Positions 6,652-48,830 of a DNA stretch of 64,000 bases are shown in pieces. The position numbers and the translations under genes are program-made. Each line of letters begins with the position of its first letter. The stretch's first letter is position 1. Origin of the DNA: Comamonas avium (lineage in GTDB: Bacteria > Pseudomonadota > Gammaproteobacteria > Burkholderiales > Burkholderiaceae_C); NCBI RefSeq assembly GCF_014836675.1, contig NZ_JACSQK010000002.1, positions 186,001 through 250,000 on the forward strand. Reading direction: 5' to 3'. The notes beneath the pieces were generated by a model. That model saw nothing but the letters and a program-made list of their open reading frames with translations, had not been told where the DNA came from and searched no databases.

Positions 6652-7149
6652 TTATAGGAACGCAAACGCATTACCTCGCGCATCGTGAAGTGCGTGATGC
6701 TCTCCGCCATGTGCTGCCCTGTGCTGGGCCAAGCGCTCGGGGTCAATCTTCAAAAACACATTTTCATGTTGCCATCCCCGGGGCAACGCACCACCAAGCA
6801 GCTCGGTCAGCAGTTCGTAATCTCCACCGTAGTCGTAGCAGAGGACAGGCTTGGGTTTGGTTGGTATTGCAAGCAGCCAATCACGTAGCTCTAAAGCCAG
6901 CTGCGAAGTTGGCATCGAGCGGCCAGGAAAGCTGCCGAGTTGCGGCAGAACAGTTGCCTGCACGAACGCATTACAAGCAGGCAGATGGAAATCCGAGCAT
7001 TCGCCGTAGAACTCTTTCCCATCCTCACTCACGATGGCGATGCTGATGAGCTGGCGGTCTTTCCAGTCGGTAAATTCAGTATCAATAAAATATCGCGTCT
7101 TCCAAGGACTGCGTGGACTTCTATGCACCACCGGCTCATTTGGGGTCAT
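6652..7149 (-). CDS. DEDDh-type 3'-5' exonuclease-like protein
   Basis: This protein of about 165 residues has the exonuclease signature of the DnaQ/Rv2179c-like superfamily: an initial D-T-E-F motif, a central Y-D-Y-G-G-D segment and a final H-x-L-x-D-A-R motif supplying the catalytic His and last Asp. Such enzymes remove nucleotides from RNA or DNA 3' ends with two metal ions. I favour the ATG at 7149 because AAGGAT lies 8 bases upstream; earlier ATGs are poorly placed. It points towards the transposition operon and is convergent with it. As transposon cargo it may act in nucleic-acid turnover or defence, but that is inference; only the fold and catalytic motifs are visible. Confidence 0.72.
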   Translation of the reverse strand: MTPNEPVVHRSPRSPWKTRYFIDTEFTDWKDRQLISIAIVSEDGKEFYGECSDFHLPACNAFVQATVLPQLGSFPGRSMPTSQLALELRDWLLAIPTKPKPVLCYDYGGDYELLTELLGGALPRGWQHENVFLKIDPERLAQHRAAHGGEHHALHDARGNAFAFL

Positions 7150-7237
7150 GCTCATCATCCTTATGCGATTTTCTGGGTAGTGCATTGCTTAAGTGCGGGT
7201 CAGCACTTTGCGAAGCGGCGTCGGCTTGAATAAGTTT

Positions 7238-7777
7238 TTAGAACACCGGTTGCAACCTCTCGCTTACCAGCTTCTTTGCATCCTCAATTTCCTGATCGCT
7301 CGGAATGATCTGGCCGACGCATATTCTTCGAGTTTCCGGAATAACGCAGTATGAGGATGAGCCGCGGTCTTCAACAGCATTCGGATACGTAACTGCTGTG
7401 ATGCCCAATGGCCCCAGCGCGTTACTTAGCTGCAGCCAGCCAACGCTCATGAATTCTTGGCTCGCGAGCTTCCTATCAATCAAATCGCTTCGAATCTCTT
7501 CGAAGATTTGGCTTCTCGTTTGGTCAATATGTTCAAAGTGCTTCTTAAGAGCATTAGCCATCGCAATAGGTTGATTTGAGCCCCAGTCGCCAGAAAGATG
7601 AAGCACGCTTCCAGGCTTGAATCGAAAACATATCTTTAGAATCAGTGGATCGCCGGTATGGCCGTCGAAAAGGCGGCGCCCTATGCGATCCACAGCTGCC
7701 TTGTAAGTGCCAAAGTGTGAGAATGCGGCAAACCGCAGCTTCTTAGCTTCAAGCATCCCATGATAGAGGTGCATCAT
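7238..7777 (-). CDS. Putative ADP-ribosyltransferase-fold protein
   Basis: This 179-residue protein is not one I can name. Its layout resembles a group of small ADP-ribosyltransferase-like proteins: an N-terminal YHG motif at residues 5-7, a SHFGT segment near residue 20 followed by A-A-V-D-R, and near residue 130 a Y-P-N-A-V-E-D-x-G-S-S-S-Y motif that could supply the catalytic Glu. A central W-G-S-N-Q segment and an amphipathic helical stretch lie between. No signal peptide or membrane segment is seen. It lies in the transposon cargo beside a nuclease-like gene, so a toxin or defence role is possible. The fold assignment is pattern-based and should be treated as a hypothesis. Confidence 0.5.
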   Translation of the reverse strand: MMHLYHGMLEAKKLRFAAFSHFGTYKAAVDRIGRRLFDGHTGDPLILKICFRFKPGSVLHLSGDWGSNQPIAMANALKKHFEHIDQTRSQIFEEIRSDLIDRKLASQEFMSVGWLQLSNALGPLGITAVTYPNAVEDRGSSSYCVIPETRRICVGQIIPSDQEIEDAKKLVSERLQPVF

Positions 7778-8240
7778 ATTTAACTTTCGTTCTAAAGAAT
7801 CAGCTAAGCCAACCGCCGTAGGCGGGTCGACTTGAGTGATGGGTCAAACCTAATAGTCGCCTCTCGCGCCTATTAGGCGCTTGCTCTATTTTTCTTTACA
7901 GGTGCTCATCCTCAGGCCTGCCGCCACAGTTAGGAAAGCCGAGTTCGAACAGAGCGGAGAGCGGGGCTAGTGGATCACTTCTGGGTGGAAATCAACAGTC
8001 CTGCGCTATCTAACCAAGCACTCCCGGGACGTCCTAAACGAATTTGATCGCATCGTTACCACGACGAATCTAAGCAGTTGATCCAGAGGCCGTGAGCAGG
8101 CTACCAGAGTGGTAGCCTCCGGGTGGTGAGATATCAAGCGGATCTAGTAAAGCGACAAAAGTTCAAGCTCATTGTGCACATGCAGATCACAGAATTACCC
8201 GCCACCTCGAAGTTGTGGTGACGGGCAGTACGGCCCCAGC
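7778..8240. other. Gene-free stretch with hairpins in the cargo region
   Basis: No convincing coding sequence is seen here. Several inverted repeats are visible: a strong hairpin with arms AGGCTACC (8098-8105) and GGTAGCCT (8111-8118) around a 5-base loop, and an imperfect palindrome around 7849-7881 built on CTAATAGTCGCC and CCTATTAGGCG. Neither is followed by a T-run. I checked for integron attC-type ends and found no convincing R'/R'' pair. The strong hairpin lies about 120 bases past the last gene of the microprotein operon and could end its transcript or be part of a small RNA. Confidence 0.5.
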
Positions 8241-8384
8241 TTATGCAGCCACTAGCATAGGGAATGCCCGGAATCCATACTGACGCGCCCAGATACGCTG
8301 TCCATTTGGCAATGTGCGATAGGGACGAAACACTATCTTCATACCGGCAGGGATCGGGAAATCAAAACTCATCTGCTTACTCAT
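8241..8384 (-). CDS. 47-residue microprotein, fourth gene of the small-gene operon
   Basis: A 47-residue protein starts at an ATG (8384) with a perfect AAGGAGG 9 bases upstream, one of the best ribosome sites in the window. Its core reads like a small beta-hairpin: a K-I-V-F-R-P-Y motif, a P-N-G-Q turn, and an A-R-Q-Y-G-x-R-A-F-P end. It has no membrane segment or Cys. The start overlaps the stop of the upstream gene by 8 bases, so it is part of the same operon. Small ORFs with an R-P-Y/W ... G-x-x-A-F-P pattern occur on plasmids and other mobile DNA as far as I recall, but I know of no function. Confidence 0.72.
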   Translation of the reverse strand: MSKQMSFDFPIPAGMKIVFRPYRTLPNGQRIWARQYGFRAFPMLVAA

Positions 8385-8574
8385 ACTGCGGTACCTCCTT
8401 TCCCAGACGAAATTTGCCTATGGAAAGATGAACTGAGATAGACTCGCGGTCGCCAAACACGCATTGAGATTTCAGTGCACCTTCCTTAACACCCGTCGCC
8501 TGGCGCGTGTCTATAGGATGACAATGGGTCATACGCTTTTGCTTATGACCCATTGTTTTTTCTGCCTCAGACAT
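8377..8574 (-). CDS. 65-residue microprotein, third gene of the small-gene operon
   Basis: A 65-residue, soluble-looking protein of mixed charge. It starts inside the end of the two-membrane-segment gene (8-base overlap) and its own end overlaps the following gene by 8 bases. I do not recognise it. Visible features are a His/Cys-containing M-T-H-C-H-P segment near residues 15-20, a single further Cys near residue 38 and a C-terminal stretch ending in E-V-P-Q-Y-E. The overlaps on both sides support it as a real gene more than its sequence does. Confidence 0.6.
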   Translation of the reverse strand: MSEAEKTMGHKQKRMTHCHPIDTRQATGVKEGALKSQCVFGDRESISVHLSIGKFRLGKEVPQYE

Positions 8575-8905
8575 AGTGCTTCATGAAGCGATCAAGCTTC
8601 TTGCCGGCAATCGTCAACCAAACACCCAGCCCGAATGCAGCAATCAGCAAAATGAAGCTGATGGGGTGCTCCGGGATCCACCATGTCGGCAAAGACGGAT
8701 AGAGCTGGCTAATCGATGCTTGGGATGCTTCTGAACCCTTGGCAGTTGCGGAAACGATAGACACTGCCTGAGCGCCAACCTTGGCATACAAGCCAGCAAC
8801 AAGCCACCCAACAGCGACGTTCCAAAGCACAGTTCCTAGTGCAATCAGCCGCTTTGGCTTGCTCCAAAAGTAGTGATGAAGTCTTTCCAACAGAGCATCG
8901 ATCAT
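8567..8905 (-). CDS. 112-residue protein with two membrane segments, second gene of the small-gene operon
   Basis: This 112-residue protein has two clear hydrophobic segments, at about residues 20-42 and 82-101, separated by a polar Ser/Ala/Gln-rich loop of about 40 residues. Both ends are basic, suggesting a hairpin in the inner membrane with cytoplasmic termini. The start codon shares one base with the stop of the preceding gene (TAATG), indicating translational coupling. I do not recognise a family. In a defence setting a small two-pass membrane protein would be an obvious candidate effector, but this is inference from architecture and its CapW/BrxR-like regulator. Confidence 0.72.
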   Translation of the reverse strand: MIDALLERLHHYFWSKPKRLIALGTVLWNVAVGWLVAGLYAKVGAQAVSIVSATAKGSEASQASISQLYPSLPTWWIPEHPISFILLIAAFGLGVWLTIAGKKLDRFMKHYV

Positions 8906-9081
8906 TACTTTTGCTCCTTGCGAACGCCTTTGAACGGCTCCTTACTGGACGTTTTCACGTCCATAAAGCGACCTGTCGTTGTGTCACGTTTGACGTAATT
9001 ACCAGCCGGTGTCTGGGTTTGACTACGCTGGCGTACAGCACCAACACGGTGTCCATCACCAACAGGCGGATTCTTAGCCAT
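8905..9081 (-). CDS. 58-residue basic microprotein, first gene of the small-gene operon
   Basis: A 58-residue, strongly basic protein runs from the ATG at 9081 to a TAA at 8905-8907. It begins M-A-K-N-P-P-V-G-D-G-H-R and contains N-Y-V-K-R-D-T-T-T-G-R-F and a C-terminal P-F-K-G-V-R-K-E end. The regular turn-and-basic pattern resembles a widespread family of uncharacterised small proteins that I recall with nearly the same start and end, which supports it as a real gene. It is the first cistron after the promoter region with the paired operators, and its stop overlaps the next start. A nucleic-acid-binding role is possible given the charge. Confidence 0.75.
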   Translation of the reverse strand: MAKNPPVGDGHRVGAVRQRSQTQTPAGNYVKRDTTTGRFMDVKTSSKEPFKGVRKEQK

Positions 9082-9099
9082 AGCAATTCCTTTAAAAGC

Positions 9100-9147
9100 A
9101 CGACTAAATGCAGTCGTACTGATAAATATATGTAGTCGAAACGACTA
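9100..9147. promoter_or_regulatory. Paired operators between the small-gene operon and the WYL regulator
   Basis: Two perfect inverted repeats built from the same half-site stand in the 106-base divergent promoter region. The first is ACGACT (9100-9105), 6 bases, AGTCGT (9112-9117). The second is TAGTCG (9133-9138), AAA, CGACTA (9142-9147). The shared core is CGACT/AGTCG, inverted in orientation between the two sites. Their position, one next to each gene, suggests that the WYL regulator controls both directions. A possible AT-rich -10 element (GATAAATATA, 9121-9130) lies between them. Confidence 0.78.
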
Positions 9148-9187
9148 TGTCAAGCATTCGTAAACTTGCTATATTTCTGCCACTGCT

Positions 9188-10120
9188 ATGATCTTGAACA
9201 TGCCTAGCACCCAAGACAAAGACTCAGAACACGCCTCCTCACTCACGCTGAAGCAGCGCGAGCGCTTAGCGTTTATTGACTTTCAGCTTTATTTCCTGGG
9301 AGAGCTTCGCCGCAATGACTTGGTTGAGCGGTTTGGCATTTCGGCGGTAGTCGCTACGCGCACAATCGCCGAGTACCTCGCTTTGGCTCCAAATAACTGC
9401 AAGTTGGATAACAAGACTAAGGTTTACCGCCCAGAGCCTGGCTTTAGTCCATGGCATCAGCATTCCGTAGGTCAGGCTCTAGCGACCCTTGCTCAAGGTC
9501 TCACACTGAGCTTTGGACACGAGCAGAACGCGCTTCTGCCAAGCGAGCTTTCGCCCGAACTATCAATGCCTCGGCTCGAAATTCTTGCGCCAGTGGCCCG
9601 CGCAATTCATCAAGGCAAAGCCATCAAGGTCAAGTATGTCTCTTTGAGTAGTGGCGAAACAGAGCGAGAAATTGTTCCATTTGCACTTGTCAATAATCGC
9701 GTGCGCTGGCACATACGGGCATATGACCGCAAAAACAATAAATTTCTGGACTTTGTTTTACGCCGAATTCTTTCAGTGTCGATTCTTGAAGATGAACCGG
9801 TTCGCGAACATGAGCGAGCCACTTCTGACATTGAATGGAACCGAATCATTGGCCTAGAACTGGTTCCTCACCCCAAGCTCAAACGGCCAGAAGTAATCTT
9901 GCACGACTACGACATGACTGACGGAGTGCTCAAGGTCAACGTTCGCGCTGCAAATGTTGGGTACCTGATGAGGCTGTGGGGAGTTGATTGTTCTCCTGAC
10001 CACTCAGCATCAAAAGACAACGCAGAAGAATTTCATCTTTGGCTACGAGACCCGCTCTCCATTTATGGAGCTCCGGGCTTGGCACTTGCTCCCGGATATG
10101 CTCGCCCAGTGACGCCATAA
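9188..10120 (+). CDS. WYL-domain transcriptional regulator, CapW/BrxR type
   Basis: This 310-residue protein has the three-part layout of defence-associated WYL regulators: an N-terminal winged helix-turn-helix (about 15-75, with L-V-E-R-F-G-I-S as the recognition region), a WYL domain (about 135-215) with the R-W-H-I-R-A-Y and F-L-D-F-V-L-R-R-I motifs, and a C-terminal WCX-like domain. CapW and BrxR are known to repress CBASS and BREX operons from paired inverted repeats. Here it is transcribed away from a four-gene microprotein operon, with two inverted-repeat sites between. A second in-frame ATG at 9200 is also possible. The regulator family is well supported; the identity of its regulon is inferred from position. 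Confidence 0.85.
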   Translation: MILNMPSTQDKDSEHASSLTLKQRERLAFIDFQLYFLGELRRNDLVERFGISAVVATRTIAEYLALAPNNCKLDNKTKVYRPEPGFSPWHQHSVGQALATLAQGLTLSFGHEQNALLPSELSPELSMPRLEILAPVARAIHQGKAIKVKYVSLSSGETEREIVPFALVNNRVRWHIRAYDRKNNKFLDFVLRRILSVSILEDEPVREHERATSDIEWNRIIGLELVPHPKLKRPEVILHDYDMTDGVLKVNVRAANVGYLMRLWGVDCSPDHSASKDNAEEFHLWLRDPLSIYGAPGLALAPGYARPVTP

Positions 10121-10134
10121 ATCGCCTAGGATTC

Positions 10135-10270
10135 CGTAGACACTTTTGAGCCGTTGGGAATGGCGTCGTTCAAACACTACCGGCGGAGTGCCGCCAGCAG
10201 TGCTGTAGCGCCGCTTGGGGTTGTAAAACATCTCGATGTAATTAAAGACATCGGTCCTCTCATCGTTACG
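10135..10270 (-). pseudogene. IS3-family transposase remnant (OrfB 3' end)
   Basis: The minus strand encodes a stretch closely resembling the C-terminal end of IS3-family OrfB transposases, with the motif D-V-F-N-Y-I-E-M-F-Y-N-P-K-R-R followed by S-T-A-G-G and a P-P-V-V-F-E-like end. Only about 45 residues remain, with no catalytic core and no flanking OrfA. The sequence near 10139-10157 may be what is left of the right end. It sits between the WYL regulator and the Fic gene and shows that the region has taken insertions and lost parts of them. Confidence 0.75.
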
Positions 10271-10281
10271 ACTCACATTTT

Positions 10282-10307
10282 GAGCCGTATTTGTTATATT
10301 GCGGCTC
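10282..10307. promoter_or_regulatory. Inverted repeat over the fic promoter
   Basis: GAGCCG (10282-10287) and CGGCTC (10302-10307) form a 6-base inverted repeat with a 14-base spacer immediately in front of the fic start codon. The spacer contains TTATAT, a good -10 candidate, so a protein bound here would block transcription. This could be a self-control site for the Fic protein, which has a winged-helix-like C-terminus, but no binding evidence exists in the sequence. Confidence 0.5.
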
Positions 10308-11492
10308 ATGATAAAGGATCAAAAATGGGTTTGGCAGCTTTCTGAATGGCCCAAGTTTGTCTATGACGGTAAGTTGCTTGCTCCTGCGTTGGCTGAAGCC
10401 CATTGGATGCATGGCATGTTGGCAGGAAAGTCACAAACCATTGGGTTTGAAGGCGTCCAACAAATTGCGCTGGATGCTCTCGTCGATGAGGTCATCTATA
10501 CGGCCGCCATCGAGGGGGTGCGATTCCCGCGAGAGCTTGTGCATTCCTCGGTGGTGCGCAAGCATGAATTCTCCTCAAGCAGGACGGATAGCAGAAACGT
10601 CGATGGTTTAGTTGACGTTATTGACGACGCCATAGCTCATGCAGATCAGCCGTTGGACGCTGACAGACTGTGTCGCTGGCAGTCTGCGTTATTCCCAGGA
10701 GAGGTTTCCCACACCCTAAAGTGCGTGGTTGGACACTTCAGAGATGGCCATGGGCACATGCGGATCGTGAGCGGCAGCCATGGACAAGAAGTTGTTCACT
10801 ATGAAGCCCCACCGTCATCGGACGTCCCCAAGGAGATGGCGCGTTTTCTCCAATGGTTCGACGATACGAAACCTACTCAAAAGCAACCCCAAGATTTGTA
10901 CTATGACGGTTTTGCGCGAGCAGCAATTGCTCATCTCTGGTTCGAATGCATCCACCCGTTTGAAGACGGCAATGGCCGTGTGGGACGAGCTATTGTGAGC
11001 ATGGCTCTGGCTCAGAGTTTGCGGGAGACAACCGGGCTGTACAGCCTGTCATGCCAGTTGTTCACTGCTAGGAACGAATACTACGAAGCCCTAAATTCAG
11101 CCCAGCGTGGAGAAATGAAAGTGAGTGACTGGGTGAAGTGGTTCATAGGCCAAAGTACCAAGGCATGTGCCATTGCAACCAAGAACATAGACCAAATTAT
11201 TGAAAAGCGTCGCTTCTGGGAAAAGGTCCAAGACAGTGCTCTGAACGAGCGCCAAAAACGAGTGCTTCATCTCTTGCTAGACACAGGGAGCCGCACAGCC
11301 CCTGATGGTTTAAACGCTGAAAAATACATGGCCCTAACAGGCGTGTCTAAAGCTACAGCAACGCGAGATCTTTCCGCGTTGGTGAATGTAGGGCAACTCT
11401 GCACCCATGGAGTTGGTAGAGCACTCCGCTACTATTTGGAGCTAAATTTCCGTGAGGCCGGTCCGCATCCTGCGCCATGTGTAAAGGGCTAA
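10308..11492 (+). CDS. Fic-domain protein with DNA-binding-like C-terminus
   Basis: This 394-residue protein has the layout of Fic proteins with an N-terminal DUF4172-like domain (start M-I-K-D-Q-K-W-V-W-Q), a central Fic core with the motif HPFEDGNGRVGR near residues 215-226, and a C-terminal winged-helix region in which T-G-V-S-K-A-T-A-T-R-D-L reads as a recognition helix. Fic enzymes transfer AMP or similar groups onto proteins, and the complete motif suggests an active enzyme. A possible inhibitory S/T-x-x-x-E-(G/N) motif is seen as T-A-A-I-E-G near residue 68. I chose the ATG at 10308; a TTG at 10299 is possible. The function as defence, toxin or regulator cannot be decided. Confidence 0.85.
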   Translation: MIKDQKWVWQLSEWPKFVYDGKLLAPALAEAHWMHGMLAGKSQTIGFEGVQQIALDALVDEVIYTAAIEGVRFPRELVHSSVVRKHEFSSSRTDSRNVDGLVDVIDDAIAHADQPLDADRLCRWQSALFPGEVSHTLKCVVGHFRDGHGHMRIVSGSHGQEVVHYEAPPSSDVPKEMARFLQWFDDTKPTQKQPQDLYYDGFARAAIAHLWFECIHPFEDGNGRVGRAIVSMALAQSLRETTGLYSLSCQLFTARNEYYEALNSAQRGEMKVSDWVKWFIGQSTKACAIATKNIDQIIEKRRFWEKVQDSALNERQKRVLHLLLDTGSRTAPDGLNAEKYMALTGVSKATATRDLSALVNVGQLCTHGVGRALRYYLELNFREAGPHPAPCVKG

Positions 11493-48485: not shown

Positions 48486-48830
48486 TTACTTGTGTTTTTG
48501 AACGCCCAGCAAGAATTCTTCCATCGACAGGCTGCCATTGCCATCACGGTCCCATTGTTCAAACTGGGCGGCAACGCTGGGCAGGTTTTCTGCTTCCTCG
48601 CGCGACAGCAGCCCATCGCGGTTCAGGTCGGAGCGCATGAATGCTTCAGAAGGGGTGATGGGCTGCACAGCGGGAGCAACGGGTGCAGGTGCTGTTTTGG
48701 CGGGGGCCTGCGAGGAGGGCGTATTCGGCGTCTGAGCCAAAACCGCAGAGGTACCACCCACCGTCAAGCTGGCAAACAGCAGCAGGCTGCGCATGTCAAA
48801 GGTGTGGGGTTTGCGTGCGGTAGTGTTCAT
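48486..48830 (-). CDS. Periplasmic EF-hand protein
   Basis: This 114-residue protein begins with a signal-like hydrophobic stretch (about 13-31, end V-L-A-Q) and, after a Pro/Ala-rich linker, has two EF-hands: D-L-N-R-D-G-L-L-S-R-E-E near residues 66-77 and D-R-D-G-N-G-S-L-S-M-E-E near 91-102. Both calcium loops look complete. I chose the ATG at 48830; a Met at 48794 is another option. It probably binds calcium in the periplasm. Confidence 0.82.
   Translation of the reverse strand: MNTTARKPHTFDMRSLLLFASLTVGGTSAVLAQTPNTPSSQAPAKTAPAPVAPAVQPITPSEAFMRSDLNRDGLLSREEAENLPSVAAQFEQWDRDGNGSLSMEEFLLGVQKHK

Follow-up and report, generated by a model that had tools for sequence, protein, structure and literature searches.

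The locus described here lies in a window of 64,000 nucleotides, the whole stretch of Comamonas avium DNA that was analysed, and is probably a CapW/BrxR-controlled, DNA-damage-inducible operon head without a CBASS core. Judged by sequence, its parts are a predicted BrxR/CapW repressor gene, a promoter palindrome at the place where relatives carry their putative operator, a leader gene encoding a 58-aa protein (micro58), whose relatives stand first in immune operons of other genomes, and the gene of a small predicted membrane protein of 112 aa (TM112). It can be proposed that a repressor dimer would block the promoter, that single-stranded DNA formed by damage or phage replication would release this repressor, that coupled translation would then yield micro58 and TM112, and that TM112 would act at the membrane. 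The regulatory claim is a strong one, and a role in defence is plausible by the company that these genes keep. Immune operons able to kill the host cell must stay off until needed. With no known effector core beside them, the leader and the two-helix protein of this CapW-type locus offer a small natural setting in which to learn what they do by themselves. The more general lead is micro58 as a companion of several damage-responsive regulators.

Four small ORFs are found on the reverse strand, corresponding to micro58 (8905-9081), TM112 (8567-8905), a 65-aa product (8377-8574) and a 47-aa product, p47 (8241-8384), and they are divergent from the gene of a 310-aa WYL regulator on the forward strand (9188-10120). 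Neighbouring frames overlap at all three junctions, by 1 nt (TAATG) at one and by 8 nt at the other two. A preliminary description of this DNA had reported four ORFs of these sizes and overlaps, divergent from the WYL gene, and all were found in the sequence. Its proposal of a four-gene microprotein operon holds for three genes, since micro58, TM112 and p47 were confirmed, but not for the 65-aa ORF, which is present and was rejected as a coding gene, so that not all four ORFs are coding.

The regulator is assigned by its sequence to the BrxR/CapW family. Residues 16-305 of its 310 could be aligned with PDB 7qfz (E 6e-80), the nearest solved structure, which is BrxR of pEFER (for BrxR of BREX, see PMC9122601). 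Other structure matches were CapW 9c5g (E 1e-28), the Stenotrophomonas maltophilia CapW 7tb6 (E 4e-26) and BrxR 7t8k (E 2e-19), and the Pfam WYL domain was recognised at E 7.5e-14. The similarity to BrxR/CapW repressors is therefore near full-length and includes the WYL domain, and the matches to 7qfz and to the CapW structures bear out the class first proposed for this regulator. Unlike in BREX, the scan of eight proteins between 6652 and 11492 matched no BREX family. According to the part available of PMC9122588, CapW is a CBASS repressor that binds palindromes at -10 sites. As far as the available part of PMC13373217 goes, CapW and CapP respond to single-stranded DNA, activation by this molecule being common to CapW, CapP and CapK.

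A sigma-70-like promoter of the small-gene operon was located on the reverse strand at 9125-9153 (TTGACA, 17 nt, TATATT), with 11 of 12 consensus positions. Putative operator 1 (9133-9147) lies in the -35/-10 spacer and reads TAGTCG-AAA-CGACTA on the forward strand and TAGTCG-TTT-CGACTA on the operon strand, while putative operator 2, ACGACT-N6-AGTCGT (9100-9117), is placed between the -10 and the micro58 gene. Both inverted repeats are perfect and share a 5-mer half-site, as had been announced for the divergent promoter, and their arms are of 6 bp. When the 106-bp intergenic region was dinucleotide-shuffled 20,000 times, two separated repeats with a common 5-mer half-site appeared in 33 of the shuffles, by a criterion fixed only after the repeats had been seen. 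As is expected of BrxR/CapW control, a palindrome overlaps the divergent promoter.

The operators were compared in 18 relatives with a CapW-type gene divergent from the 58-aa gene, namely 14 of 80 genome loci (the best 80 of 432), L051 and L052 being near-identical, plus L002, L004, L005 and L013. A palindrome in the same register as operator 1 was detected by scan in 13 of these 18, and by eye in a fourteenth (L002). In its best-scoring place in the 13 relatives, it is of the kind nATCA-WWW-TGATn and stands one base past the -35 hexamer, giving TTGACA-T-nATCA-TTT-TGATn in the relatives versus TTGACA-T-AGTCG-TTT-CGACT in the window. The relatives' palindromes are often imperfect, between 3 and 5 of the 5 arm positions being matched, and L086 has a weak -35. 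With the patterns used, no such palindrome was seen in L034, L056, L060 and L005, which include two of the three TM112-bearing loci, and the same palindrome was not seen in L050 and L108, whose WYL proteins belong to another group. We read the palindrome of the window as a putative CapW-type operator with shifted specificity, and the changed half-site in both palindromes fits a repressor and an operator that would have changed together.

With regard to the 65-aa ORF, comparison with relatives makes it very probable that an RNA element was misread as a gene. A plasmid search with its product was empty at E 1, and among the ORFs of the collected loci the product matched itself alone. In L033, from Acidovorax facilis, the regulator, micro58 and p47 are present and TM112 is absent; the DNA of the 65-aa ORF is conserved, and the corresponding frame has stops in this one comparable locus. 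Without a homologue and with its frame broken, the 65-aa gene of the preliminary description had to be given up.

A candidate structured RNA, recognised by fold z and a two-sequence alignment, was located on the forward strand at 8439-8565, with three stem regions, the last of them followed by TTTTTT on that strand. Its fold z is -5.35, and that of L033 is -7.29 (-4.01 and -5.96 on the opposite strands), both sequences folding into the same three stem regions. In the alignment, 97.1% of cells are paired, a share that 4 of 500 shuffles reached, and six pairs show two-sided changes (8 of 500), values obtained from two sequences with a structure derived from one of them. Inside the element there is a hairpin with 16-nt arms, 94% complementary (8521-8556; L135 13522-13557, offset 5001). 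The T-run after the hairpin on the forward strand suggests transcription in the direction opposite to that of the operon, but this forward-strand hairpin was not listed by the terminator scan. The candidate RNA may be a divergent ncRNA or the leader of the 47-aa gene. Rfam gave no match within 7700-10400 at E 1; in seven relatives, nothing but tRNAs and one ALIL pseudoknot exceeded the gathering score, none of them at p47. A search with the DNA of the element matched one of 299 family genomes, its own. The DNA pattern TTTGGCGACCGCGAGT gave seven matches in viral contigs, in unrelated contexts, and these were judged to be due to chance.

The p47 protein is a basic, conserved microprotein, with relatives at 77-35% identity, and its gene carries the ribosome site GGAAAGGAGGT, the perfect one that had been attributed to one of the products. 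Compared with L033, pS is 0.92 and pN 0.15. Six of the 399 family genomes searched carry it, its own among them, and a broken copy exists in another genome of the same genus (G002). Upstream of p47, strong hairpins were also noticed by eye in L114, L115, L116 and L118. It can be proposed that p47 and the structured RNA would form a second cassette, which joins micro58 elsewhere and would end the operon here. It is also quite conceivable, though we lean against it, that both constitute a cassette of their own, which would have no relation to the CapW operon and would lie downstream of it by chance. Such independence would agree with the p47 relatives of L114-L118, found without micro58 or the regulators sought, and with the T-run of the hairpin on the opposite strand, which suggests a divergent transcript. 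However, p47 relatives lie near micro58 in L033, L042, L104, L105 and the phage locus L007, and the terminator scan listed no terminator-like site on the operon strand between TM112 and p47.

Turning to the head of the operon, it had been stated that none of the small genes matches a known system, but micro58 is already a PADLOC candidate, PDC-S38 (PADLOC-DB 2.0), matching the whole model PDLC05010 (E 6e-31, profile positions 1-57 of 57). It also resembles phrog_12550 (E 4e-22). Its product, with a pI of 10.7, corresponds to the basic microprotein noted beforehand. In eight pairs, pN ranges from 0.07 to 0.22 versus a pS of 0.79 to 0.93. With saturation at synonymous sites and a pN that has stayed low, micro58 is a protein under strong constraint, and the pS and pN values of micro58 and p47 together indicate selection on both as proteins. 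The AlphaFold2 model of micro58 is a three-stranded beta meander of middling confidence (pLDDT 72.7), and neither this model nor that of TM112 gave a PDB fold match at E 0.001 or better. A viral library gave one match at E 3e-4 and 41% identity, BFVD A0A481YYV3, a protein assigned to Mimivirus LCMiAC01 and uncharacterised; this resemblance may be due to a binning error. By tblastn, micro58 was found in 75 plasmid and 16 phage records, and a literature search returned no paper naming PDC-S38 and none on CBASS with a microprotein.

The genome scan confirmed 432 micro58 loci, and the neighbour counts use the best 80 of 432, a sample that therefore holds the closest micro58 relatives, mainly from Proteobacteria. 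A regulator accompanies micro58 in 55 of these best 80: CapS is directly upstream in 27, 25 of them also with a CapK-like gene, and the others are CapW-type (14), other WYL (2) or ImmA-like (12). The remaining loci of the best 80 have micro58 beside lepA or carB (18), with a 68-aa gene alone (3) or with no sought gene (4), which means that micro58 also occurs apart from such regulators. The co-occurrence of the small genes with the regulator thus stood for micro58, which is beside a CapW-type gene in 14 of the best 80 of 432, but not for the whole set, as among those 14 TM112 is present in three (L034, L056, L086), p47 in one (L033) and the 65-aa ORF in none. Relatives of a 73-aa microprotein of L087, usually of about 68 aa, lie just upstream of micro58 in 21 of the best 80 of 432 loci (L036, L037, L040, L048 and L062, among others), mostly beside lepA or carB and many in Rhodobacteraceae.

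Downstream of micro58, in overlapping categories, the best 80 of 432 hold CD-NTase (19), Bub-like (6), MBL-like (3), DUF4747 (3), YegP (5) and YdjM-like (22) genes. A CD-NTase, Bub-like, MBL-like or DUF4747 gene follows in 31 of 55 regulator loci versus 0 of 25 others within this best 80, and when YegP and YdjM are added the figures become 45 of 55 versus 0 of 25. Since Bub-like, DUF4747 and YegP genes also follow it, micro58 was rejected as a CBASS-specific part. Seven regulator queries found nothing in 15 loci that are, by tblastn, also without micro58, a small and unmatched control; L133, in turn, has an ImmA-like regulator without micro58, with 45% identity over 353 residues to that of L070, so regulators of such kind also occur without it.

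Concerning the labels used for these neighbours, a CapS representative matches the solved CapS 9z72 at E 2e-56, and also 9z71, whereas the CapK-like protein gave no Pfam or PDB match and is so called from its place before CapS and from the annotation 'ATP-binding protein' in L003, from whose annotation the HsdR label also comes. The Bub-like genes were recognised by Pfam as DUF6791/ThiF and DUF6527, a combination that we take to be Bub. The ImmA/CapP-like regulators are presumably of that kind, and the LepA and CarB labels are our assumption from length and sequence. The MBL-like protein had no Pfam match, and its label, which we assume, follows PMC13373217.

The loci in which a 58-aa relative comes immediately after CapS, 27 among the best 80 of 432, resemble the CapK and CapS immune operons. 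In the part available of PMC13373217, the genes that come after CapK and CapS belong to CBASS, Bub, DUF4747 and YegP, the same kinds that 58-aa relatives precede. The regulator here is, instead, of the WYL type. The 58-aa gene is not mentioned in the available part of that text, in whose figures unknown genes are drawn white. The regulators and the downstream genes of micro58 belong to different families, and, as far as that part of PMC13373217 goes, the trait common to the regulators is activation by single-stranded DNA. On this basis, micro58 might be a component that immune operons have in common for their damage-responsive control. As a basic protein with a beta sheet, it would bind the single-stranded DNA signal and dampen or sharpen the response, providing feedback in many such operons; this is a speculative and rather improbable proposal. 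In any case, immune-operon control can be approached experimentally through a protein of 58 residues that is strongly conserved and comes right after several damage-responsive regulators unrelated to one another.

TM112 has two hydrophobic regions by hydropathy, in keeping with the two membrane segments that had been assigned to one product, and its structure model is a helical hairpin of middling confidence (pLDDT 70.2). No PADLOC model matched it at E 1. Its relatives are rare: among 399 genomes of the order four have one, and among 398 of the phylum sample two, with its own genome counted in both. In viral contigs, none was found by single-sequence search and two by alignment search. Directly after micro58, a TM112 relative is present in L034, L056 and L086, that is, in three of 80 micro58 loci (the best 80 of 432), and not in L033. 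In all three, a CD-NTase and a 4TM relative follow; in L034 the cyclase, the E2 and the 4TM effector were identified by model, and an E2 was seen in L086 as well. The link between TM112 and CBASS consists of these three loci. A TM112 relative is also present in L009, L031, L032, L131, L132 and L133, six loci in which searches for micro58 and for CBASS core genes were empty; that of L131 is beside a ThiF-family gene, and that of L032 is in a viral contig.

The locus thus shares with CapW-controlled CBASS, as given in the part available of PMC9122588, the divergent CapW-type regulator, and its first two genes are those of L034, L056 and L086; the promoter palindrome is shared with 14 of the 18 relatives. 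In contrast to relatives such as L034, which carry E2 and 4TM genes, neither the CD-NTase nor the known effector that CBASS comprises was found here among the families sought. The genome-wide search covered the cyclase family PDLC00817 and the S_4TM effector family; neither was found in its own genome, while the positive control G075 was matched by both (PDLC00817 at E 9e-184). In the window, queries with the relatives' E2, cyclase and 4TM proteins returned nothing. Taking into account that these three genes are absent from the window, TM112 may be a membrane effector or brake that stress induces and that works by itself, or it may await a signal made elsewhere.

The missing core could also mean that the locus is a remnant, a CapW-controlled CBASS operon that has lost its cyclase, E2 and effector, leaving a regulator, a leader and a 2TM gene without present function. 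This would be consistent with the searches of its own genome, in which the PDLC00817 and 4TM families were not found, and with the three relatives in which micro58 and TM112 precede the CBASS core. Nevertheless, we regard it as unlikely, given the strong purifying selection on micro58, the half-site changed in both operators, and a TM112 gene that is intact and overlaps micro58. Moreover, a tblastn search for CBASS gene pieces in the window yielded none, with one chance-level match (E 0.037) at 48659, and L033 likewise has the regulator and micro58 without the cyclases sought.

A self-standing abortive-infection unit, in which TM112 would be a toxic membrane effector, micro58 its partner, and the release of CapW the response to infection, seems equally doubtful. 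The two hydrophobic regions of TM112, the inclusion of PDC-S38 in a library that comprises defence proteins both known and candidate, and a regulator class tied to immune operons in the available parts of the literature speak in its favour. However, neither sensor nor toxin was identified at the locus, TM112 relatives accompany micro58 in only three of the best 80 of 432 loci, and in these three a separate 4TM relative lies beside TM112, for which reason TM112 may be an accessory. The repressor-controlled unit of abortive-infection type that had been envisaged retains, in the damage-inducible operon head that we prefer, its regulator class, its operator and its defence context, but not its four microprotein genes. 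A toxin-antitoxin pair was rejected, the small genes being without a family match to one.

It has also been proposed that the locus sits in transposon cargo. TniB and TniQ domains are indeed found upstream, but the ends of the element were not identified, since a repeat search of the surroundings showed no convincing terminal repeats. Two further ORFs, which we take to be TnsA-like and TnsB-like, had no Pfam match at 0.001. The WYL gene is adjoined by a Fic gene at 10299-11492 (PADLOC SoFic, E 4e-41; Pfam Fic, E 4e-15), and on the operon strand an exoribonuclease-like gene is located at 6652-7185 (RNase AS model, E 2e-11, far below the cut-off of that model). A second WYL-domain gene is present in the same genome, at G000:C13:268418-268606.
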